From: a virus
Direction: 5' to 3' (one strand)
DNA length: 32,847 nucleotides
Virus record (IMG/VR): IMGVR_UViG_3300045611_000098
Coordinates: 1 to 32,847 of that record
In this document: piece after piece, positions 10,685-27,664 of the stretch
Layout: every line of letters starts with the position of its first letter
How positions within the stretch are numbered: the first letter of the stretch is position 1
Made by a program: the position numbers and the translations under genes
The notes under the pieces: model-generated
The model's input: only the letters and a program-made list of their open reading frames with translations
Database searches by the model: none
Told to the model about the DNA's origin: nothing

Positions 10685-13252
10685 GTGAAACGAAGATTGC
10701 TGATCATCATGGGCTTGATTCTTCCCTGGGCAGCAAGCGCGGGGCTTGTGCCGCGCCAGGACTACACCAGCAACGTCAGCCTCCCGGCGGCGCGTCGGTC
10801 GCTCACCATGATGCAGAACTCCTCGCAACTGCTCGGATGGCGCTTCATGCAGGGCGCGTCCTCGTTGGACCTGACCGGGGCCACTGACGTGACATTCACG
10901 TATTCAGCGCCGACCGGCAATCTCTGGAAGGTCACGGCCACGGGCGCACTGGAGACCGCGACCAACGGCGCTGTGCTGTTCAGCCTGACGCCGACCCACT
11001 TGGCGACGAATAGCGGGACGCGGTCCTGTGAATTTATCATTCGGGTAGCCAATATGACCAGCACCCTGGCCTATGCGTTCGGCGACCTAGTGCTCCTGAA
11101 AGACATTTCCATTCAGGGGCAACTGGCCTTGGCGACGGGAACGAATATCAACTGGGCCGCATACTCCAACCATCAGAACCTTGCGACCGCGGGGCCTTAC
11201 ACGGCCGGGAGCAACATGGCATTCCATGCGGGGACCGCCGGGCGCGTCGTGTTGGACGTGAGCCTGAGCACCAATGGGCTGGCCTCAACGAACTTCGTTG
11301 ATGTGACTATTGCGGCCCGAACGGGGACGCTGGCGAGTACGGCCTTCACGACCAGTGGGATACCATGGGAGGCCAACGGGCTGGCGAGCACCAATGGCCT
11401 CGCCTCGACCAACTTCGTTGACGTGACGATAGCCGCTCGGACCGGGACGCTGGCGGCCACGGCGTTCAGCACCAACGAGATTCCGTGGGAGGCCGACCAA
11501 ACGAACGGGCTGGCGGGGCTGGGCGGCCATAACTGGTTCGGCGGTACGAACGCCATTACCAATACATTCCAATCCACCGTCATCATCAGCAATCCAGCCA
11601 CTTTCGGCTGGTATGCCGCTTTTGGAATCGACCCAGAAGGACAAAACCTGACGTATCACGGCATTGGTGTGCATGAGTGGAACGATGCAGACCAGGCTAG
11701 CTCCCAGACAGAGGTAAAAATGATGGATAGCTATTGTCTTCTCGCCTGGCCGAAACGCTGGGGGCCAAATGACGTGTGCCATACGATACTTGGGATGAAC
11801 TACGCTGATCCGCTGGGGGGACCACGCCTACTCGATGTTCAAGACCTCGCAAGGGACGGAACTATGGATCAGTGCTTCATGGTCTGCCCATCCAATTTCG
11901 AGTATCTCGTCAGTGCGCGACAGTGGGATTTGATCAACACACCGCCGACGAATATAGACAGAACGTTTTATCTGTTTCGCACAAACAGCCCATTCGAGTT
12001 GGAGGTGTATGGTGGAACGTCATTTTTCACGTCGGTAGCGTGTACGAATCTTGTTGCCACCAACCTTGAAGCGCAGACCCTCACCTCCGGCGGAACGAAC
12101 ATCCTGGCACAGATCACGGCGCAGAGCGGGGGGTCTGTGTCATTGCCAGAAAGCAACAACTGGAACTGGGCAACGCAGAAGGTTCAGGATGTGGAGGCGT
12201 CCGGTCAGTCTATCAGCAACAACTTCGTCGCATTCACGAACGCGGTTGATTCGCCCAGTTTGGCGTCCGGCGGCACCAACATCCTGGCCCAGATCACGGC
12301 GGAGGCGGGAACGAACGGCCTGGCCTCGACGAACTTTGTGGATGAGGCAGACTTGCAGGTGTCCAACCAAATCTACTGGATCGTCTCCGCGACCAACACG
12401 GTCACGACCAACTGGGCCGACGAGGCCATGCTGATCATCAGCAACCTGATCGTGGCCGGCGGGTCCTCGACCGACACCGTGGCGCGGGCCACTGGGGCCG
12501 TGGCCCTGGCCGTTGCGGAATGGTCCAGTAACGGGGTCTGGAACGTGAGCAACCAGGTCGCGCTGCTCGATCTGCACTTCGGTTCCGTCACCGACACCGT
12601 GGCCCGCACGACCGGCACGACGGCCTACGTGATCGCAGAGTGGTCTAGTAACGGTGCCGTGAACGCAGCGAGCGAGACCAATCAGTATGCCAAAACGAAT
12701 GATGCGCGATCCATCAATTTCGGACAGTATCCGCAAGTTTTGAGCACCAACGTGCTCACGCAGGCCGACACCAATTCCTTTGTCCTGGGCGGTGGCGGGG
12801 CCTCGACCAACAGCCAAGCCATGATCCTCTACGCTGTTGATCCGGTGTCGCGCCTGACTCCGGGCGCACCGACCAATACGGCCCTCCAGCCGACGACCAT
12901 AGTGGTCAACGCTGGCTGGAACTGGAGTGCGGCGGAGACTGGTTGGTTCCCGTCTGTGCGGTGCCGTGGCTACGCCTCGGCGTCCGTGCGCGTCAGTGAC
13001 CCCCTCGCCTCGACATGGCACTCAGGCGCAATCTGCGCCTACAAGACGGGCGGGGTGGTAGTGTCAACGGGGACCAATTTCTCCTACCCTATCGCGGCGG
13101 GGTATGGTGTACCTGTCACATCGCAGATGCTACCGTTCGATTTCCCGGCAACGAACTCCTACTTGATGTGCGTTGCGACTGGGGCCAAGACGAACAACAC
13201 GAGCACAAGCACGGCACCATGCTCCATCAGTGTTTCAGCATCGAGTTATTGA
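10685..13252 (+). CDS. Putative tail fibre with internal repeats and signal peptide
   Basis: Protein of 855 aa, the largest in the genome. It has a signal-like N-terminus (KRRLLIIMGLILPWAASA-G), an N-terminal beta domain, then degenerate repeats. A tandem 120-base (40-residue) unit with NGLASTNFVDVTIAARTG starts at 11272 and again at 11392. GGTNILAQIT appears at about 12088 and 12268. DTVAR-TG with AEWSSNG appears at about 12473 and 12593. Such repeats suit a trimeric, elongated fibre shaft; the unique C-terminal 170 residues could be the receptor-binding tip. GGGGAGCG precedes the ATG at 10685. Confidence 0.65.
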   Translation: MKRRLLIIMGLILPWAASAGLVPRQDYTSNVSLPAARRSLTMMQNSSQLLGWRFMQGASSLDLTGATDVTFTYSAPTGNLWKVTATGALETATNGAVLFSLTPTHLATNSGTRSCEFIIRVANMTSTLAYAFGDLVLLKDISIQGQLALATGTNINWAAYSNHQNLATAGPYTAGSNMAFHAGTAGRVVLDVSLSTNGLASTNFVDVTIAARTGTLASTAFTTSGIPWEANGLASTNGLASTNFVDVTIAARTGTLAATAFSTNEIPWEADQTNGLAGLGGHNWFGGTNAITNTFQSTVIISNPATFGWYAAFGIDPEGQNLTYHGIGVHEWNDADQASSQTEVKMMDSYCLLAWPKRWGPNDVCHTILGMNYADPLGGPRLLDVQDLARDGTMDQCFMVCPSNFEYLVSARQWDLINTPPTNIDRTFYLFRTNSPFELEVYGGTSFFTSVACTNLVATNLEAQTLTSGGTNILAQITAQSGGSVSLPESNNWNWATQKVQDVEASGQSISNNFVAFTNAVDSPSLASGGTNILAQITAEAGTNGLASTNFVDEADLQVSNQIYWIVSATNTVTTNWADEAMLIISNLIVAGGSSTDTVARATGAVALAVAEWSSNGVWNVSNQVALLDLHFGSVTDTVARTTGTTAYVIAEWSSNGAVNAASETNQYAKTNDARSINFGQYPQVLSTNVLTQADTNSFVLGGGGASTNSQAMILYAVDPVSRLTPGAPTNTALQPTTIVVNAGWNWSAAETGWFPSVRCRGYASASVRVSDPLASTWHSGAICAYKTGGVVVSTGTNFSYPIAAGYGVPVTSQMLPFDFPATNSYLMCVATGAKTNNTSTSTAPCSISVSASSY

Positions 13253-15952: not shown

Positions 15953-16158
15953 ACCAACAGAACCGCACGTACACCCTGGGCCTGGCCTGCGGTTGCGTCG
16001 TGGCCTACGATCCGGCGACGGGTCGGACTGGGCCGGTGACGCTGGCCTGTCGGCGGCATCACCGGCGGGGGACGGCCTGGCGGGCCGGGGACTGGCTGTT
16101 CGCGGGGGTCGTGTTGGTCCTGGTCACGGTGCTCGTGATACTGGAGGTGACACGATGA
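15949..16158 (+). CDS. Small membrane protein with Cys-rich start
   Basis: Protein of 69 aa. ATG 15949 overlaps the previous stop (ATGA). N-terminal half has Cys at GLACGCVVAYD and LACRRHHRR. The C-terminal half is a membrane span (DWLFAGVVLVLVTVLVILEV). Function unknown; an early membrane protein such as a superinfection-exclusion factor is possible but unsupported. Confidence 0.5.
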   Translation: MNQQNRTYTLGLACGCVVAYDPATGRTGPVTLACRRHHRRGTAWRAGDWLFAGVVLVLVTVLVILEVTR

Positions 16159-16355
16159 GACTAGTCCTGTACTGCCGCAAGCGGCCATGTATCTTTTCGA
16201 CGGTCTGGACGGTGGCGGTCTTTGACGTGGTGCCGGGATTCCGTGTCGAGATGGAAAGCAGTGACCAGAGGCTTCCAGTGGAGGAGGTTCTGTGTTTTCT
16301 GAAGGACGCGAACGTGACGCATATCACGGTCATAAAGGAGGAGAAGAGAGGATGA
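16155..16355 (+). CDS. Small protein, unknown
   Basis: Protein of 66 aa. ATG 16155 overlaps the preceding stop by ATGA, with CTGGAGG upstream. Beta-alpha-beta pattern (WTVAVFDVVPGFRVEM, then VEEVLCFLKDANVTHITVI). No recognised family. Part of the early operon of overlapping small genes. Confidence 0.5.
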   Translation: MRLVLYCRKRPCIFSTVWTVAVFDVVPGFRVEMESSDQRLPVEEVLCFLKDANVTHITVIKEEKRG

Positions 16356-16963
16356 ACGAGAAGCGGAACAGTGCGGAGGTCGGGATTCAAACCATCGAGT
16401 TGAAGCTGCGGGGTCGGAACGGATCACCATTGGTGATTCACGCCTTTGCGGAAAAGGCGAAGCAGGAGATCAGAGACAAGCAGCAGAAGAAGGCCAAGAA
16501 AGCCAAGGAGCAACGCGATCCGACAGCGGAGTTTCTCGCGGCCCGTTACGTGGACGGTGAGGGCCGGGAGTGTGCGCCGATTACGGCGCTGAAGAAGTCC
16601 ATCATCAGCGCGGCGACGGCCTTTGATGACATCACCAAGGTCGGCTTGCGGCAAGCGGTCTTCGTGGACAGTGTTGCGTCTCCTGGGTCGGCCTTAGTGC
16701 CGATTGAGGATCACGACGGCAAGCCTGCGGTGGGCGAGATGCGTGAGGACGCCGTGACAATCGGGATCAACACGCGGGGTCTGACCTATCGGCCAGAGTA
16801 CAAGACATGGCAGTTGCGGGTGCGGATCGAGTACAACCCGCGCATCGTGAGCCGTGAGCAACTGCTCGCCCTGGTGGATCAGGCAGGGTGGGGCGTGGGG
16901 ATATGCGAGGGGCGGCCTGAGCGGTCGAGCGCGTTGGGTTGGGGCCGGTTCGAGCGAGTGTGA
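16352..16963 (+). CDS. Conserved-looking phage protein, unknown function
   Basis: Protein of 203 aa. ATG 16352 follows GGAGGAGAAGAGAGG. A Lys-rich helix (about 33-53) separates an N-terminal strand region from the main domain. The C-terminal pattern GWGVGICEGRPERSSALGWG resembles the G-x-G-x-x-x-WRPE...GxFGRF ending I associate with a family of siphophage early proteins of unknown role. It lies upstream of an SSB-like protein and immediately before the pentanucleotide tract, so a recombination or replication role is possible. Confidence 0.5.
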   Translation: MNEKRNSAEVGIQTIELKLRGRNGSPLVIHAFAEKAKQEIRDKQQKKAKKAKEQRDPTAEFLAARYVDGEGRECAPITALKKSIISAATAFDDITKVGLRQAVFVDSVASPGSALVPIEDHDGKPAVGEMREDAVTIGINTRGLTYRPEYKTWQLRVRIEYNPRIVSREQLLALVDQAGWGVGICEGRPERSSALGWGRFERV

Positions 16964-17540
16964 CCAAGGGTCTGACCGGGCTCGGCACGGCCTGATTGGG
17001 TCGGGCCTGGTTGGTCGGGTGAGGCGGGGCCTGGTTCGGCAGGTGAGGCGAGGTGAGTCTTGGCGCGGCGAGGCACGGTATGGTCGGGTTCGGCAGGCGC
17101 GGCTTGGCTTGGCACGGCGTGGCTGGGTGCGGCATGGTAAGGCGCGGTGAGGCAAGGCATGGCAGGTGTGGCAGGCCCGGCGGGGCGGGGCAGGGCGGGG
17201 CGGGGCCTGGCATGGTAAGGCATGGCAGGTAAGGCACGGCGTGGTCTGGCGCGGCTTTGCCAAGCCTGGCGGGACGTGGTTCGGCGTGGTTAGGCAGGCG
17301 GGGCGGGGCCGGGTGCGGCGCGGCGCGGCGTGGCCTGGCGGGGCGGGGCTCGGCAGGTGAGGCTTGGCGTGGCTAGGCGCGGCTGGGTGCGGCATGGTAA
17401 GGCGCGGTGAGGCAAGGCATGGCAGGTGTGGCACGGCACGGCAGGGCAAGGCTGGGTGCGGCCCGGTACGGCAGGTGTGGTACGGCAAAGCAAGGTTCGG
17501 TTTAGTTAGGTGGGGTACGGCGTGGCAGGCAAGGCGCGGT
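16964..17540 (+). repeat. Pentanucleotide GGYNN tract
   Basis: About 577 bases in which GG recurs every five bases, the third base is nearly always C or T, and the last two vary (for example GGCAC GGCGT GGCTG GGTGC GGCAT GGTAA). The register is shifted repeatedly by four-base GGCA units. One interruption, GGCTTTGCCAAGCC (17253-17266), is a small inverted repeat. The strand is extremely G-skewed. Open frames on either strand here are artefacts of composition. The tract starts at the stop codon of the preceding gene and ends about 30 bases before the next. Confidence 0.9.
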
Positions 17541-17569
17541 TGTGATAATCAAGGGGGGGACAAACGACC

Positions 17570-17764
17570 ATGACGGTCATCTGCGAGTGCTGTCGGTGCG
17601 GAGAAGAGGTCATTGTGTCGGTGGACACATCGGAGGGCATCTTCGACGCCACGGGCGAGCTATGCCGGGACTGCCTGACGGCGGAACGGGACAGGGAGCA
17701 CGCCATCGAGCGGGCCATTCAGCGGGACAGGGACATGGCGGCATGGGCCGCCAGTGACGAGTAG
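17570..17764 (+). CDS. Small C4 zinc-finger protein
   Basis: Protein of 64 aa. Cysteine pairs CECCRC (near 5-10) and CRDC (near 32-35) would bind one zinc ion; the C-terminal half is a charged helix. It follows the repeat tract with AAGGGGGGGAC upstream of ATG 17570. Small zinc-ribbon or DksA-like proteins are common in phage early regions. Target unknown. Confidence 0.6.
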   Translation: MTVICECCRCGEEVIVSVDTSEGIFDATGELCRDCLTAERDREHAIERAIQRDRDMAAWAASDE

Positions 17765-17789
17765 GAAACACACACAGGAGGGAATAGAC

Positions 17790-18653
17790 ATGCTGCTACA
17801 GATCACATCAATCCACGCACAGATCGAGAACGCGCCCCGTGCCACAACGGGCAGGACGTTCTCCCTTTACAAGTGGACGGTCTCCGGCTTCCTCGACGGC
17901 GAGCCAGTCGAGAACATCACGTTCGGGACGCTCTCGGACACGGCGGCCAAGTGGGTCAGACCGGGCCTGGAAATCGAGGTCGAGGCCGATGTCCACAAGG
18001 GCAAGACGGCCTACATGATCCCCAAGGCCATCGCCACGCAGCGGGGCTACACGCCGAAGTACAGCCCCGACGCCGCGCCTGCGGCTCCCACGGCCAGACC
18101 AGCAGGACCGGCCAAGCCGCCGGTTGCGGCGGGGACGGGGCCGATCATGGCCGGGTCGAGCCAGGATGTGCGCGTCAGCCGGGACGTGAGCATCGAGGTT
18201 CAGCATTCGGTCAACGCGGCCATCGCGCTGCTTCACCACAACCGAGCCGCTCAAATCGACTTGCCCCAGGTCAAGGCCGAGGCCGAGGCCATCCTGCTCA
18301 TGGAGTACAGCCTGAAGGCGTACATCGCCAGCGGCCAACTCGCCCGCAAGGTCGCGGCCCAGGAGGAGGCCGGGATCAGCGACATCCTCAATCAGACCTT
18401 GTTGCCAGCCATCGGAGGCACACTCAATCACGCCCGTATCCAGGCCGGCGTCAGCAATTTACGCCTTGTCCAGATGTGGGACAGGGCTGGGAAGAACGTG
18501 GACCGACTCCGTGAACGGTTGCTTGGCCTGTGCGAGGACTACATGCCCGAACCGGCAGTGGGGCAAGACCAGACGGACGGCTCGATTGCCTGTACGGAAG
18601 TGGACATGTCCGGGTGCGGGACGGTCACGGAGAACGACAAGCTGCCGTTCTGA
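17790..18653 (+). CDS. SSB-like protein (OB-type N-terminus, acidic-aromatic C-terminal tip)
   Basis: Protein of 287 aa. ATG 17790 is chosen over an in-frame ATG 17754 because CAGGAGGGAA lies just before it. Residues 1-80 look like an OB-fold (LLQITSIHAQIENAP, FSLYKWTVSGFLDG, then IEVEADVHKGKTAYMIPKAI). A Pro/Ala linker follows (about 92-122), then a helical domain of about 140 residues. The last residues NDKLPF mimic the D-D-I-P-F partner-binding tip of bacterial SSB. It probably binds phage single-stranded DNA and recruits replication or recombination enzymes. The helical domain is not typical of SSB. Confidence 0.6.
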   Translation: MLLQITSIHAQIENAPRATTGRTFSLYKWTVSGFLDGEPVENITFGTLSDTAAKWVRPGLEIEVEADVHKGKTAYMIPKAIATQRGYTPKYSPDAAPAAPTARPAGPAKPPVAAGTGPIMAGSSQDVRVSRDVSIEVQHSVNAAIALLHHNRAAQIDLPQVKAEAEAILLMEYSLKAYIASGQLARKVAAQEEAGISDILNQTLLPAIGGTLNHARIQAGVSNLRLVQMWDRAGKNVDRLRERLLGLCEDYMPEPAVGQDQTDGSIACTEVDMSGCGTVTENDKLPF

Positions 18654-21693: not shown

Positions 21694-21765
21694 ATGATCG
21701 AGGCGGCCATCGAGCGGGAGGAGGCCAAGGCCAGGACGGTCGGGAGGGGCCATGACGCGGATTGA
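21694..21765 (+). CDS. Possible 23-residue peptide
   Basis: ATG 21694, one base after the initiator stop, opens 23 codons (MIEAAIEREEAKARTVGRGH then DAD) overlapping the methyltransferase start by 14 bases. It may be a translational coupling peptide or chance; no separate ribosome binding site beyond AAGGGA. Confidence 0.2.
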   Translation: MIEAAIEREEAKARTVGRGHDAD

Positions 21766-23197
21766 ACAGGGGGACGCGGCGACCGTGCTCAGGACGCTGC
21801 CGGAGGCGAGCGTGAACTGCATTGTGACCTCTCCGCCCTACTGGGGCCTGCGGGACTACGGCGTACAAGGCCAGATCGGGCTTGAGCGGGTGCCAGAGGA
21901 ATACGTCGCCAATCTCGTTGCCGTATTCCGAGAGATCAAGCGGGTACTTCGTGATGACGGAACATGCTGGATCAATCTGGGACCGACTTACACAGCCTGC
22001 GTTTTGCGTGATAACTCTGCCAACCGGTCTCCCCTGCTGTGGCGTGCTCTCTCATGTGGCACCGATGGCAAAGCACGTCAAGATTTTCAAGGCGATGGTC
22101 GTGCTTGTCTCGGTTACGATGATGGATGCCAAGGCGCGAGTCTGTCCCGTCATGCTGACACCGTTCACAATGACCGATCCGTTTTACAAGGCGAGCCGCA
22201 GACTTCGCGGATAAGCCGTGATAGCGGGCATTCGGATTACGACCAAGCATCTCCTGACGCTTCGCTTCGCGGCGTTCAGGTGTCCACCATGCTGCAATCT
22301 TTCGACCGACCTCTGGACGCTTCCTGCCCTGAAGCCACGGCTTCGGCTTCCCGGCCTGAGCCGCAGACATTTTTGCCCGCGTCTCATCTGTGCGCTGATA
22401 CGTCGGGTGGCACTCCCGGCAACCCGTCGATGTCGCCCCCATTGGTCGTCCGCACTTCGGGCAAGGAATCTTTTTTCTCGGCATGTGGCTCTCCTGATTG
22501 TCACGGCATAGGCCGCTGTGGTTTATGTTGGTGTAGATTAGCCATTCCGTCCCTGAATGTCAAGGCCAAGGACCAGGTTTCTATTCCGCACCTTGTCGCG
22601 CTCGCACTTCAGGCGGACGGCTGGTATCTGAGACTGGACAACATCTGGCACAAGCTGAACGCGATGTGCGAGAGCGTGAAGGACAGGCCAACGCGGGTGC
22701 ATGAATATGTGTTCCTGATGAGCAAGTCGGAGCGGTACTTCTATGACCAAGAGGCCGTCCGGGAACCGCAAGCGGAGTCATCCAGGGCCCGGGCCCAGTA
22801 CGGTTGGCGCGGTCGGACCGACGACGGGAGTGGGGGCGCAAGGACTGGTTCGGGCTTTCGCCGATGCGCGACTGAAGGACTGACGACTGGCGAGGCTGGT
22901 TTCTTCCCAGCCGATGGCCTACGGAACATGCGGTCGGTCTGGACAGTGGCGGTCGCCCGGTCCAAGGACGGCCACTTTGCCACGTTCCCACCCGCTTTGG
23001 TGCGGCCCATGATCCTGGCGGGGTGTCCGGTGGGCGGGACGGTGCTGGATCCGTTCGCGGGGTCGGGCACGGTGGGCGAGGTGGCCGAGGAGGAGGGGCG
23101 GAACTCGGTCTTGATCGAACTGAGGCCGGAGTACGTGGACATGATCAAGGCCCGGACGCGGCAGGCCGGGCTGTTCTGCGGGGAGGAGCGAGGATGA
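21752..23197 (+). CDS. Beta-class DNA (N4-cytosine/N6-adenine) methyltransferase with a 187-residue insertion
   Basis: Protein of 481 aa. Catalytic motif IV SPPY (27-30) in TSPPYWGLRDYG precedes the SAM-binding DPFAGSGT near the C-terminus, the permuted beta-class order. The core is interrupted between LGPTYT (to 81) and NVKAKDQ (from 269). The intervening 187 residues read as composition-driven, non-domain-like protein and coincide with an antisense HNH gene. The frame stays open, so a full fusion could be made. After it, IPHLVALALQADGWYLRLDNIWHK and HEYVFLMSKSERYFYD are standard. It methylates phage or host DNA, probably against restriction. Confidence 0.8.
   Translation: MTRIEQGDAATVLRTLPEASVNCIVTSPPYWGLRDYGVQGQIGLERVPEEYVANLVAVFREIKRVLRDDGTCWINLGPTYTACVLRDNSANRSPLLWRALSCGTDGKARQDFQGDGRACLGYDDGCQGASLSRHADTVHNDRSVLQGEPQTSRISRDSGHSDYDQASPDASLRGVQVSTMLQSFDRPLDASCPEATASASRPEPQTFLPASHLCADTSGGTPGNPSMSPPLVVRTSGKESFFSACGSPDCHGIGRCGLCWCRLAIPSLNVKAKDQVSIPHLVALALQADGWYLRLDNIWHKLNAMCESVKDRPTRVHEYVFLMSKSERYFYDQEAVREPQAESSRARAQYGWRGRTDDGSGGARTGSGFRRCATEGLTTGEAGFFPADGLRNMRSVWTVAVARSKDGHFATFPPALVRPMILAGCPVGGTVLDPFAGSGTVGEVAEEEGRNSVLIELRPEYVDMIKARTRQAGLFCGEERG
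21972..22484 (-). CDS. HNH homing-type endonuclease, antisense inside the methyltransferase gene
   Basis: Protein of 170 aa, the only convincing minus-strand gene. A zinc knuckle (CPKCGRP...CRECH) comes first, then NUMOD3-like DNA-binding repeats (DETRAKMSAAQAGKPKP, RRPEVGRKIAAWW-type), then an HNH fold (CERCQHDGT, LGIHHRNRDKHDH, LENLDVLCHRCHMREH). On the minus strand, CAGGAGAG lies 5-12 bases before its ATG at 22484. Free-standing HNH enzymes spread by cutting alleles that lack them. It occupies most of the insertion in the methyltransferase gene. Confidence 0.85.
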   Translation of the reverse strand: MPRKKIPCPKCGRPMGATSTGCRECHPTYQRTDETRAKMSAAQAGKPKPWLQGRKRPEVGRKIAAWWTPERREAKRQEMLGRNPNARYHGLSAKSAARLVKRIGHCERCQHDGTDSRLGIHHRNRDKHDHRLENLDVLCHRCHMREHATAGETGWQSYHAKRRLCKSVPD

Positions 23198-23937
23198 GCA
23201 CGACTAAGATCGAATGGGCCGACCGGGTGTGGAACCCGGTCACGGGGTGTCCGCCGGACGGGGCGCAGACCGAGGGGTGCCGGAACTGCTACGCCCGGCG
23301 CATGGCGAACCGGCTGCGGGGGCGGTGCGGATACAAGAAGGATGATCCGTTTGCCATCACGCTGCGCGATTACCGATTGGATGAACCCTACCGTCGGAGA
23401 AAGCCGAGCCGCGTGTTCGTGTGCTCGATGGGGGACTTGTTTCATGGCCAAGTGCCGTGGCAGAGACAAGTGTGGAGACATGGGCCAAGAGAAACATGGA
23501 TAATTCTGCAAGTTATTCGTGAGTGTCCGCAACACACTTTCCTTCTGCTCACGAAGCGGCCTTGTCGTATGCGACTGATTCTGGGCGAATATTACCACAG
23601 CATAGGCATAGAGCACTTGCCGAATGTCTGGTGCGGCGTGAGCGTCCACGACAACGACGCGGCCTGCTCGTTGATCCCTCTGCTCCTGGAAGTCCCGGCG
23701 GCGGTCCGGTTCCTGTCGGTCGAGCCGATGCTGGGTCCGGTTGACCTGAGACCGTGGCTCGGCAGGATCGACTGGGTGATCTGCGGGCCGGAGACGGGGC
23801 CGGGGGCGCGGCCCTTTGATCCGGCCTGGGCCAAGGCTTTCTACGGCCAGTGCCGGGAGGCCGGGGTGCCGTTCTTCCTGAAGCGCCGGACGATTGACGG
23901 GCGGGAGGTCAGGGAGTTCCCGAGAGGGGGCAAGTGA
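23194..23937 (+). CDS. Phage Gp37/Gp68 family protein (DUF5131-like)
   Basis: Protein of 247 aa. Start ATG 23194 overlaps the methyltransferase stop (ATGA). The opening STTKIEWADRVWNPVTGC, the CRNCYARRMANRLRG block, and later VFVCSMGDLFHGQVP and LLLTKRPCRM, WCGVSVHDN are hallmarks of the Gp37/Gp68 (DUF5131) family, whose Cys pattern hints at a radical-SAM-like ancestry. The C-terminal GPETGPGARPFDPAWAKAF and VPFFLKR complete the match. The biochemical role is unknown; the gene is frequently found beside DNA methyltransferases and other DNA-modification genes in phages. Confidence 0.8.
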   Translation: MSTTKIEWADRVWNPVTGCPPDGAQTEGCRNCYARRMANRLRGRCGYKKDDPFAITLRDYRLDEPYRRRKPSRVFVCSMGDLFHGQVPWQRQVWRHGPRETWIILQVIRECPQHTFLLLTKRPCRMRLILGEYYHSIGIEHLPNVWCGVSVHDNDAACSLIPLLLEVPAAVRFLSVEPMLGPVDLRPWLGRIDWVICGPETGPGARPFDPAWAKAFYGQCREAGVPFFLKRRTIDGREVREFPRGGK

Positions 23938-23946
23938 GGGAGAGCG

Positions 23947-24153
23947 ATGAGCAAGAAGAGACGTTGCTGTATCTGGCGACGAGATGAGAATACGCCTGTG
24001 GACAAGTTTTGGCGGGGGGGGTGTGGCACGGCAGGCTGGTGGTTCCCCCACGATGTCAAGCAGTTGTCAGAGAAAATGCGGTTTTGTCCGAAATGCGGGA
24101 AGCCGATCCGAGTGAAGAAGGACGCTTCTGACCATGCGGGAACAACGGGATGA
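23947..24153 (+). CDS. Small zinc-ribbon protein
   Basis: Protein of 68 aa. Cysteines at the N-terminus (RCCIWRRD) and a clear knuckle MRFCPKCGKPIRV. A Trp-rich middle includes GGCGTAGWWFP. ATG 23947 is nine bases after the previous stop, with GGGAGAGCG upstream. Typical of small phage accessory proteins; function unknown. Confidence 0.55.
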   Translation: MSKKRRCCIWRRDENTPVDKFWRGGCGTAGWWFPHDVKQLSEKMRFCPKCGKPIRVKKDASDHAGTTG

Positions 24154-24293
24154 CGACGCGACCTGAACTCAAGGCCCCGTTCCCGTGGTTCGGCGGGAAG
24201 CGCCGGGTGGCGCCGGTGGTCTGGGCCGCGTTCGGCGACCCGGCGGCCAATGAGACGCGCCCGCTGTGGCCGGAGGACGGAGGGGGCCAATGA
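24150..24293 (+). pseudogene. Truncated Dam-type (D12) adenine methyltransferase remnant
   Basis: ATG 24150 overlaps the preceding stop. LKAPFPWFGGKRRVAPVVWA then FGDP is the N-terminal signature (including the FxGGK SAM-binding turn) of D12-class N6-adenine methyltransferases, which normally continue into N-Y-V-E-P-F-A-G-S. Here the match stops after about 33 residues and the frame ends at 24293 after 47 codons; full enzymes exceed 200 residues. The break lies next to the left copy of an 18-base direct repeat, so it was probably lost by recombination. Confidence 0.65.
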
Positions 24294-24301
24294 CCGGGCC
24301 G
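24284..24301 (+). repeat. Left copy of 18-base direct repeat
   Basis: GGGCCAATGACCGGGCCG, identical to 25994-26011, with a looser match further left (GAGGA-CGG and GAGGATCGG). It contains the start codon and first codons (MTGP) of the gene that is intact at 26000; here that frame ends after nine codons. Confidence 0.75.
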
Positions 24302-24302
24302 C

Positions 24303-24331
24303 TTGACATCATGCCATAATTCTGCGATGCT
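24303..24331 (+). promoter_or_regulatory. Candidate promoter P3
   Basis: TTGACA (24303-24308), 17-base spacer, GATGCT (24326-24331) with TGC in front (extended -10 form). Predicted start near 24338, exactly at the first base of pseudoknot helix a. It sits immediately right of the direct repeat. Confidence 0.55.
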
Positions 24332-24337
24332 GATAGC

Positions 24338-24438
24338 GCGATGAACGGAAACAGAAACAACTTGCCCGCGTCCTGGGAACCCATGCCGTCAGGCATCCGT
24401 TCATCGCAACCAGGCGCGGGCATTGTCTTGGAGACGCA
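24338..24438 (+). ncRNA. Candidate pseudoknotted 5' leader RNA 3
   Basis: Helix a: GCGATGAACGG (24338-24348) with CCGTTCATCGC (24397-24407), 11 perfect pairs. Helix b: TGCCCGCG-t-CCTGG (24363-24376) with CCAGGCGCGGGCA (24410-24422), 13 pairs and one bulge. Hairpin c: ATGCC-gtca-GGCAT (24383-24396), abutting a'. Order a-b-c-c'-a'-b' is a pseudoknot with an A-rich 14-base linker between a and b and a two-base linker between a' and b'. GGAG of the next gene follows within ten bases. Hairpin c shares TGCCG-x-CAGGCA with RNA 2. Confidence 0.6.
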
Positions 24439-25431
24439 ATGAAGATTCACCCTGTCACTCAATGCTGGCCTATCATGGGCGAAGATGACTATGCCGAACT
24501 CATCGAAGACATCCGCGCCAAGGGGTTGCTGCATCCGCTTGTGATGCAGGGCGACGTTCTGCTCGATGGGCGTAATAGGCTGAAGGCGTGCGAGGAATTG
24601 GGCATCAAGCCAGATATGGTGCAGTACGTTGGCGATGATCCTGCTGGCTACATCATCAGCACGAACCGGCGGCGCAATCTCACGCCTGGGCAGCGGGCGA
24701 TGGTGGCGGAGAAGTTGGCGGGGCTGAAGCATGGCGGGGACCGGAAGCACGAAGTTATCAAGGGCTCAAAAGAGCCCTTGATATTGAATCAGGAACAGGC
24801 CGCCGAGACGATGGGGGTGTCCGAGGCTTCTCTCAAAAGAGCCCGCGAGATCAGACATACTGCGCCTGACTTGGCGGCGAAGGTAGAGTCCGGCGAGATG
24901 ACGCTTTGGGCCGCGCACAAGGTGGCGAAGCCCCACGTCGCACAGAACTCCGGTGATAACGAGTGGTACACTCCGAAAGCCTATGCAGAGTCGGCGCGGG
25001 TGGTGATGGGGAAGATTGACATTGATCCAGCGAGCAGCGAAACGGCGAATAAGATCGTGAAGGCTGGTAAGATATTCACGCAAGACAATGACGGGTTGAA
25101 GCAGGACTGGAGCGGAAAGCTGTGGTTGAATCCACCATATTCAACGGGCCTGATTGACAAGTTCGCTGCCAAGACCGTGACGGAGTATGAGCAAGGGCAC
25201 ATAAGCGAGGCTCTGGTGCTTGTCAACAATGCTACGGAAACAAGGTGGTTCGCCCGGTTGTGTTCGGTGGCGACAGGCTTCTGCTTCCCAACAGGTCGTG
25301 TCAAGTTCTGGCATCCGCGCAAGAAGGCCGCGCCGCTCCAGGGGCAAGCAGTAGTGTACTTTGGAAAACACTGGCAGCGGTTCGCAAACGAGTTCAGGCA
25401 ATACGGCATTGTGGCGAAGATCGAAAAATGA
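24439..25431 (+). CDS. ParB-type nuclease/DNA-binding domain fused to DNA N6-adenine methyltransferase
   Basis: Protein of 330 aa. ParB/Srx domain at 1-70 (YAELIEDIRAKGLLHPLVM, LLDGRNRLKACEELG), then a helix-turn-helix region (LNQEQAAETMGVSEASLKRA, 117-136). From about 173 comes a phage Dam-type methyltransferase domain (DNEWYTPKAY, IDIDPASSETAN, LKQDWSGKLWLNPPYS with the NPPY catalytic motif, FPTGRVKFWHP). Known phage architecture; it methylates adenine, with the ParB part perhaps guiding site choice. A 12-bp perfect palindrome lies in its own coding sequence. GGAG precedes ATG 24439. Confidence 0.85.
   Translation: MKIHPVTQCWPIMGEDDYAELIEDIRAKGLLHPLVMQGDVLLDGRNRLKACEELGIKPDMVQYVGDDPAGYIISTNRRRNLTPGQRAMVAEKLAGLKHGGDRKHEVIKGSKEPLILNQEQAAETMGVSEASLKRAREIRHTAPDLAAKVESGEMTLWAAHKVAKPHVAQNSGDNEWYTPKAYAESARVVMGKIDIDPASSETANKIVKAGKIFTQDNDGLKQDWSGKLWLNPPYSTGLIDKFAAKTVTEYEQGHISEALVLVNNATETRWFARLCSVATGFCFPTGRVKFWHPRKKAAPLQGQAVVYFGKHWQRFANEFRQYGIVAKIEK
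24756..24783 (+). repeat. Perfect palindrome inside the ParB-methyltransferase gene
   Basis: TATCAAGGGCTC, AAAA loop, GAGCCCTTGATA. Its inner part CTCAAAAGAGCCC recurs at 24832-24844. No U tract follows, so termination is unlikely; a protein-binding site or mRNA hairpin is possible. Confidence 0.75.
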
Positions 25432-26429: not shown

Positions 26430-27002
26430 ATGAACAGGACAGAGGTAATCACGCGGTATGTGAGTCAATTCAGAGCGGCATTCAAGGAGGGGGTTGACGG
26501 GATTGTAAAGGCGGCGGGGATTTACGTTCGGGCACTGGATGACAACCCGCGCAATGCCGATCTGTTCCACAAGGAGTTCAAGAATCAGATCTCCGAGGCG
26601 ACATGGAGCCAGTTGGAGGCACTGGGCCGGAAGTGGATACACCCGAAACTGATGTTGACGCCATTTGACGAGCCAAGGCGGGCGGACATTATCCGGGGGC
26701 TTTCGTACAGCCTTCAGGAGCGGGTGATGAATCGGGAGAAGTTTGATTTCATGACGCGGGAGGGGGAGAGCCGCAAGATTGATCTGCTGGAGGCGCCGAT
26801 TCGGGCGGTGGAGCAGGTTTGCGCGAAAACATCGGTGCGAAATGTGGAGGAGCAGAAGGCATGGCTGGAGGCTATCGACGCCAGAAATGCACAGTATGCG
26901 GAGCAACCCGCCTATATGGTGATCGGGAACAAGGTCTATTTCAAGCGGGGTTGCGTTCTGAGCGGGGCGGAGATGCAGAAGATTCTGGAGCAGATCAAGT
27001 GA
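26430..27002 (+). CDS. Unknown early protein
   Basis: Protein of 190 aa, mostly helical. ATG 26430 preceded by AAAGGAGGAAAG; the 58 bases before it are almost all purine. A central segment FHKEFKNQISEATWSQLEAL then ADIIRGLSYSLQERVM and a C-terminal PAYMVIGNKVYFKRGCVLSGAEM are distinctive, but I know no family. Its stop overlaps the GTG start of the repeat protein, so the two are translationally coupled. Confidence 0.55.
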   Translation: MNRTEVITRYVSQFRAAFKEGVDGIVKAAGIYVRALDDNPRNADLFHKEFKNQISEATWSQLEALGRKWIHPKLMLTPFDEPRRADIIRGLSYSLQERVMNREKFDFMTREGESRKIDLLEAPIRAVEQVCAKTSVRNVEEQKAWLEAIDARNAQYAEQPAYMVIGNKVYFKRGCVLSGAEMQKILEQIK

Positions 27003-27664
27003 CACGCGCTGCGGACAGAGCCCAGAATGCGGAATATCAGCGCACCTATCGCGCTGCACACAGAGTGCAGATTGCGGAAAGGATGCGAGCCTATCGTGCC
27101 GCGCACAGAGAGCAGGTTGCGGAAAGGATGCGAGCCTATCGTGCCGCGCACAGAGAGCAGGTTGCGGAAAGGAAGCGAGACTATCGTACTGCGCACAGAA
27201 CACAGATTGCGGAATACCAGCGAGCCTATCGCGCCGCGCACAGAACACAGATTGCGGAATACCAGCGAGCCTATCGCGCCGCGCACAGAGTGCAGGTTGC
27301 GGAAAAGGAGCGAGCCTATCGCGCCGCGCATAGAGCGCAGATTGCGGAAAAGGGCCGAGCCTATTACGCCACGCACAGAACACAGATTGCGGAAAGGGGT
27401 CGAGCCTATCGTGCTGTGCACAGAGTGCAGGTTGCGGAAAAGGAGCGAGCCTATCGCGCCGCGCATAGAGCGCAGATTGCGGAAAGGGATCGAGCCTATT
27501 ACGCCACGCACAGAACACAGATTGCGGAAAGGACGCAGCGTTATCGAAAAAATCGGATGGCTAGGCACAGAGAGGCAAGATGGACATGGTTGAGGATGAT
27601 GGCGGCGGCTGATCTGATAGGGCAGATGAACGCGGGGGACAGAACCAAGGGGGCAACACAATGA
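26999..27664 (+). CDS. Protein of twelve 15-residue repeats (AHRxQxAExxRAYRA)
   Basis: Protein of 221 aa. GTG 26999 (GTGA overlap) chosen because the frame upstream lies wholly inside the preceding gene. Residues 5-184 are twelve uninterrupted 15-residue units, consensus AHR-x-Q-(I/V)-AE-x-x-RAYRA, predicted as continuous positively charged helix. The last 37 residues are basic and end in a Met/Ala-rich helix. Similar Arg/Tyr repeat proteins occur in phages, some next to HNH domains; the repeats probably bind nucleic acid. No catalytic domain here. Confidence 0.65.
   Translation: MTRAADRAQNAEYQRTYRAAHRVQIAERMRAYRAAHREQVAERMRAYRAAHREQVAERKRDYRTAHRTQIAEYQRAYRAAHRTQIAEYQRAYRAAHRVQVAEKERAYRAAHRAQIAEKGRAYYATHRTQIAERGRAYRAVHRVQVAEKERAYRAAHRAQIAERDRAYYATHRTQIAERTQRYRKNRMARHREARWTWLRMMAAADLIGQMNAGDRTKGATQ
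27011..27550 (+). repeat. 45-base tandem repeat array (12 units)
   Basis: Twelve consecutive 45-base units coding the 15-residue repeats. Units vary mainly at residues 4, 6 and 9-10 while GC(C/T)-TATC-G and GCGCACAGA cores are kept at DNA level. No spacers, so not CRISPR. Several other frames are open through it only because of its composition. Confidence 0.85.

Follow-up and report, generated by a model that had tools for sequence, protein, structure and literature searches.

The window, a stretch of 32,847 nucleotides of viral DNA (IMG/VR record IMGVR_UViG_3300045611_000098, positions 1 to 32,847), very probably carries a tailed-phage locus of the VIPR (Viral Interference Programmable Repeat) system, consisting of a Vipr gene and a guide-RNA array. 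VIPR is a phage RNA-guided DNA-binding system, reported in April 2026 in a preprint that is not yet peer-reviewed (PMC13142463), and proposed there as a CRISPR ancestor. According to this preprint, Vipr is a RAMP protein of about 20 kDa, with an RRM core and a G-loop, and the guides (vrRNAs) comprise 9-16 YNNGG repeats, in which GGY is constant and NN hypervariable. The NN bases pair with double-stranded DNA, one target base being skipped per step (NNxNNx), with the skip at the codon wobble (PMC13142463). An accessory vap gene is 'typically' present, and a structured, invariable 3' tail is described on each vrRNA of the SUSP1 clade. Some of the published VIPRs are cellular (PMC13142463) and being virus-encoded is, therefore, typical of the system without being required. 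The present locus is virus-encoded, as the IMG/VR record contains terminase, portal, and tape-measure genes. The tract described below almost certainly holds about ten guide RNAs, serving the single protein encoded beside it.

The original prediction had singled out this tract for its GGYNN units and 5-base period, which are borne out by counting. Between positions 16964 and 17540, 109 GGY triplets are found, and 90 of the 108 successive spacings are exactly 5. Eleven spacings are 4, corresponding to ten GGCA tetramers and one GGTT; the shortening of units to GGCA, as first described, thus holds for all tetramers except one. The remaining seven spacings (10 or 15) are due to degenerate units, and the register is kept across them. 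A shuffled sequence showing equal periodicity had been named as grounds for refutation, but 300 dinucleotide shuffles gave a lag-5 GGY autocorrelation of 7.6 +/- 2.6 (maximum 16), against 90 in the tract. Each of the 105 units scored has C or T at its third position, which agrees with the earlier impression of a selected pyrimidine rule. Over the same 105 units, entropies reach 0.26 bits for each of the two G, 0.92 for Y, 1.90 for N1, and 1.98 for N2. Eight units are degenerate, each having lost one G, and the pyrimidine is retained in 8/8. Neither a reversed control pattern, searched across the whole record, nor the GGYNN pattern on its minus strand gave a single match.

The tract takes up all of the DNA from a stop codon (TGA, 16961-16963) to the ATG of the next gene (17570), as had been stated, while the limits of the array proper differ slightly from those first given (Table 1). 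With its near-constant GGY, its variable NN, and eight tetramer-bounded blocks of 9-13 units each, it contains the guide of 9-16 GGY/NN repeats that is expected in a VIPR. Among the functions initially listed for the tract, an untranslated RNA scaffold comes closest, since the array matches VIPR vrRNA guides. No Rfam RNA, ribozyme, or tail was detected in positions 16000-18600 of the window, nor in 12 other array loci. Scans for promoters and terminators did not rise above shuffles, with the exception of one weak promoter-like site at the 3' end of the array.

Table 1. Parts of the vipr-array locus, in window coordinates (blocks are given as their successive NN dinucleotides).
Feature	Position	Strand	Basis
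vipr, Vipr-family RAMP protein, 203 aa, phrog_4652, C-terminal G-loop GWGVGICEGRPERSSALGWGRF	16352..16963	+	profile, structure model, alignment
vrRNA array, about 117 in-register GGYNN units, blocks parted by eleven 4-nt units	16969..17542	+	spacing, parsing, entropy
First array units, 8 + 5, split by atypical tetramer GGTT (17009-17012), with degenerate units	16969..17037	+	parsing
Guide block, 10 units: GA GA GA TT GC GA AC AT CG TC	17042..17091	+	parsing
Guide block, 13 units: GC TT TT AC GT TG GC AT AA GC GA AA AT	17096..17160	+	parsing
Guide block, 10 units: CC GG GG AG GG GG CT AT AA AT	17174..17223	+	parsing
Guide block, 13 units: AA AC GT CT GC TT CA CT GG GT TC GT TA	17228..17292	+	parsing
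Guide block, 11 units: GG GG CG GC GC GC GT CT GG GG TC	17297..17351	+	parsing
Guide block, 13 units: GA TT GT TA GC TG GC AT AA GC GA AA AT	17356..17420	+	parsing
Guide block, 9 units: GT AC AC AG AA TG GC CC AC	17425..17469	+	parsing
Guide block, 10 units: GT AC AA AA TC TT TA GG AC GT	17474..17523	+	parsing
Terminal GGCA and three units, no structured tail apparent	17524..17542	+	parsing

The first units of the array possibly represent one or more worn-out or leader guides. A 1-unit block (GGTGT), flanked by two GGCA, stands ahead of the block starting at 17174.

The tract had been considered non-coding, and a period of 5 with 4-nt slips indeed breaks any reading frame. A protein-coding repeat gene could be suspected because long ORFs span the tract by chance and some phage records annotate a protein at such places, but given the destroyed frame and the hypervariable NN, the probability of this reading is negligible. 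The A/R/G/H/Q-rich mistranslations that the original prediction mentioned, with some uncertainty, for other phage entries do exist. Mycobacterium phage Donkeykong gp48 ('...ARHGKGVGMARRGMARLG...'; L137:3426-3812) and Gordonia phage Pipp gp43 (L138:4602-4871) are arrays that were recorded as hypothetical proteins, and each lies beside a Vipr homologue.

The gene upstream of the array ends 5 nt before it. A family profile, built from the array-neighbour homologues of this ORF and leaving SUSP1 out, matches the Vipr of Escherichia phage SUSP1 (ALH47069) with an E-value of 4e-51. In SUSP1, the gene coding for ALH47069 sits between GGYNN tracts, which are the published upstream and downstream vrRNAs of this phage. 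The AlphaFold2 model of the window protein, obtained with 59 relatives, has a pLDDT of 91 and a pTM of 0.85. When the model was submitted to Foldseek, the top matches were nearly all Csm3/Cas7/Cmr RAMPs from CRISPR type III and type VII systems, and VIA comparison with RAMPs yielded Z values of up to 11.3 (rmsd 3.6 over 152 residues). A C-terminal loop (G-x3-G..RP..G-x-F) is conserved in the family, and the alignment reveals five invariant residues (R147, W153, G183, R188, and G198). The length of the protein, its profile match to SUSP1, its RAMP-like model, and its G-loop are, thus, those of a Vipr protein. All of the 60 aligned family members are covered by phrog_4652, annotated as 'unknown function', and the family has neither a PADLOC model nor a fitting one in Pfam (one weak match among 60 members).

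The array and vipr are found together well beyond this window. Scanning IMG/VR with the DNA pattern (GGYNN)10 alone retrieved at least 120 loci, and among the 120 loci listed, 87 contain a homologue of the upstream ORF. As to the strand, a point raised at the outset, the array lies on that of vipr in 86 of the 86 loci measured. The median vipr-array distance is 16 nt, and it is below 500 nt in 79 of the loci listed. In a phage collection, a DNA search with the tract and a tblastn search with the protein returned nearly identical sets of 30-odd records, for the most part Mycobacterium and Gordonia phages. The guides can differ even where the protein is similar: in L083, Vipr is 77% identical to that of the window and the NN of the array are wholly different. 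Beyond vipr and the array, no gene order is common to close relatives, and the two, thus, seem to be transferred together from phage to phage. No accessory (vap) gene conserved beside vipr was found in the close clade, in which the large non-vipr clusters are spurious ORFs crossing vipr or the array. Neither the SSB-like ORF nor the 64-aa CxxC ORF that starts at 17570 is common to close relatives.

This linkage bears on the DNA-level roles that had first been envisaged. Downstream of the array lie a phrog_2139 exonuclease gene and an SSB-like ORF, and a protein that forms filaments could be accommodated by the 5-bp pitch. On this view, the tract might be an array of protein-binding sites, or a modulator, Chi-like or for packaging, tied to SSB-like and RecB-like genes. 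Both genes are, however, absent from the examined flanks of relatives with a 67-87% identical Vipr, in which array and vipr stay paired. The variable NN and the punctuated blocks are left unexplained as well, which makes a DNA-acting array highly improbable. The other candidate was a G-quadruplex or G-rich structural element, two-tier, pausing polymerases or serving as a replication signal. It would account for the recurrence of GG at 5-nt intervals along 570 nt of a single strand, and the folding of the array RNA is slightly better than that of shuffles (z -2.5). It predicts neither the pyrimidine in all units, nor the spacing of GGCA, nor the codon-like NN, and the companion of the array is an upstream RAMP-like gene, adjacent at the 87 independent loci mentioned above. 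A quadruplex is, consequently, very unlikely, and a packaging or replication signal is disfavoured by the same companion gene.

Arrays also change by internal duplication. In the window, a 53-nt duplication begins inside a block: the block at 17356..17420 ends with the same eight units as the block at 17096-17160, down to the Y bases. Rearrangement of the array, thus, ignores block limits. The near-identical L150 and L151 differ by a duplicated two-block module. Such duplications of tens of bases indicate that recombination shapes the arrays, and they are also what a functionless pentanucleotide repeat grown by slippage would display. Slippage, however, copies all five bases, whereas here only GGY is nearly constant and NN approaches full variability. 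As the same rule is common to at least 120 unrelated contigs and tied to one protein family, slippage can be regarded as extremely improbable.

Within the VIPR reading, the tetramers constitute a further feature of the array. In the window, they are not scattered, and most of them part blocks of 9-13 units, the successive inter-tetramer stretches counting 5, 10, 13, 1, 10, 13, 11, 13, 9, and 10 units. Statistics were computed on the 58 arrays having at least three tetramers, in which 254 of the 278 tetramers are GGCA. Stretches of 8-13 units represent 66% of the total, versus 21% (maximum 27%) when the unit order is shuffled. Together, these values suggest that GGCA probably punctuates the guides. 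A border role is proposed on the grounds that the 5-nt register is interrupted by a 4-nt unit, and GGCA tetramers would, in this case, probably delimit consecutive guides, each 9-13 units long. In 111 of 127 clean contexts, N1 is a purine in the unit directly following GGCA. In the clade, arrays often end with a tetramer and a few units, and no shared tail was seen by eye between blocks or at array ends. The comparison of orientation and GC correlation within and across tetramers (half-blocks) has no power to separate guides. One candidate target backs GGCA as a guide border: a ten-unit block of L017, located between two GGCA, matches coding sequence in contig L125 at 19/20 bases, with the skip at the wobble. 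This match, a single case, does not extend past the bounding tetramers.

The NN dinucleotides carry a codon-like signal, irrespective of any target. With a codon model derived from the window's own genes, they resemble codon positions 1-2, the KL divergence being 0.029 in the sense phase versus at least 0.11 in every other phase. Codon positions 1-2, sense or antisense, are the best fit for 387 of 506 guides (76%; 264 sense and 123 antisense), compared to the 33% that six equal models would give. A control with N1 and N2 swapped gives a lower share (240/506), from which it follows that part of the signal is base composition. The NN composition agrees with the published wobble-skip rule.

Targets of the window guides were sought with the NN codes of the blocks, one base skipped, by exact matching, a procedure that misses mismatched targets. 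Six exact pattern scans of IMG/VR found none. In GTDB genomes, a first scan found none, and a second one gave three 9-unit matches, which fail to extend to the other four units and remain below the 7 or so expected by chance (an estimate). When all arrays were compared with the pooled loci at a threshold of at least 19/20, a skip of one base gave three matches (first pool), skips of 0 and 2 none, and a skip of 3 two matches, both of them array self-matches. At the looser 17/18 threshold, a skip of 1 gave 14 matches, versus 9, 5, and 4 for the other skips. This excess is suggestive only, in favour of a one-base skip.

Among the known systems close to it, the locus shares with the VIPR of phage SUSP1 (type II; PMC13142463) a Vipr homologue, an intergenic GGY/NN guide on the vipr strand, and a phage-borne location. 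In SUSP1, a vap1 gene is present and the vrRNAs are individual RNAs, about 100 nt long, that all have a conserved structured tail, whereas the window has one continuous array with GGCA tetramers, in which no tail was seen, and no conserved vap. Mycobacterium phages (e.g. Donkeykong gp48-49) and the Gordonia phages Pipp and UmaThurman have a Vipr homologue (33-38% identity) and an adjacent array, with different guides. The arrays of Donkeykong and Pipp are GGCA-punctuated like that of the window, although the Donkeykong array precedes vipr. In Pseudomonas aeruginosa phage LESphi2 (L139:4010-5082), a Vipr homologue is followed by a gene that resembles, by eye, the putative SUSP1 vap, near a CI repressor. 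Class 1 CRISPR-Cas systems share the RAMP fold (Csm3/Cas7) and an adjoining RNA array. They rely, however, on contiguous spacers, while the window has a 5-nt alternating code, with no direct repeats of at least 21 nt separated by unique spacers, and no Cas family was found among the neighbours by a Pfam and PHROGs scan.

Other layouts were observed. In L095 (4600-5047), blocks of 10-13 units are parted by a constant GGCTAATGG element, with a pitch of 50-70 nt. In L063 (76-800), GGYNN blocks are parted by a conserved non-array spacer (TTCTTCTCAACGG..TTTTCGAGG) without any Rfam match. The preprint (fig. S18) names 'staggered arrays with overlapping vrRNAs', which are probably the same architecture as that of the window, namely uninterrupted arrays whose boundary units could be common to neighbouring guides. 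These staggered arrays may be the GGCA-punctuated ones. A GGCA tetramer does not figure in the main text of PMC13142463.

Elsewhere in the window (21752-25431), a DUF5131 gene (phrog_2045) lies between two genes for DNA methyltransferases, one of them a fusion with a ParB-like domain; DUF5131 is also found less than 2.5 kb from vipr in L144 and L157. A 45-base repeat (27005-27533; 11.7 copies, 82% matches) within ORF 26819-27664 encodes a 15-aa repeat. A 120-base direct repeat (11266-11494; 1.9 copies, 79% matches) is located in an ORF of 855 aa, which is situated downstream of the tape-measure-like gene.

By analogy with the other members described in the preprint, the locus could operate as follows. 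The upstream gene would provide Vipr, a small Cas7-like RAMP, and the tract would be transcribed on the vipr strand, probably jointly with vipr, and processed into guide RNAs. Vipr subunits would line the RNA to form a ribonucleoprotein, each occupying a 5-nt unit, holding its constant GGY and leaving the NN exposed. The exposed NN would pair with double-stranded DNA as NN-x-NN-x, the skipped base normally being the codon wobble, and the bound complex would shut down the transcription of genes that belong to rival phages or satellites. Borders between guides of 9-13 units are probably set by the GGCA tetramers. It is plausible, and proposed here tentatively, that GGCA punctuation breaks the register of the Vipr filament every 9-13 units and delimits guides, perhaps as a processing site, in continuous tail-less arrays that constitute a distinct, compact VIPR architecture. 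If so, over 20 guides would fit on one transcript of up to 1.1 kb, with neither a vap gene nor individual tails.

The window offers a clean VIPR member from an uncultivated phage, reached by an independent route, from a raw sequence pattern to a protein. While the locus is a further member of a described system, its GGCA punctuation may be the part that is new. All the family members seen here belong to PHROG 4652, until now of 'unknown function', and VIPR arrays can be mis-annotated as proteins. Finally, the regular occurrence of GGCA in many arrays suggests where guides start and end, which is needed for decoding their targets.
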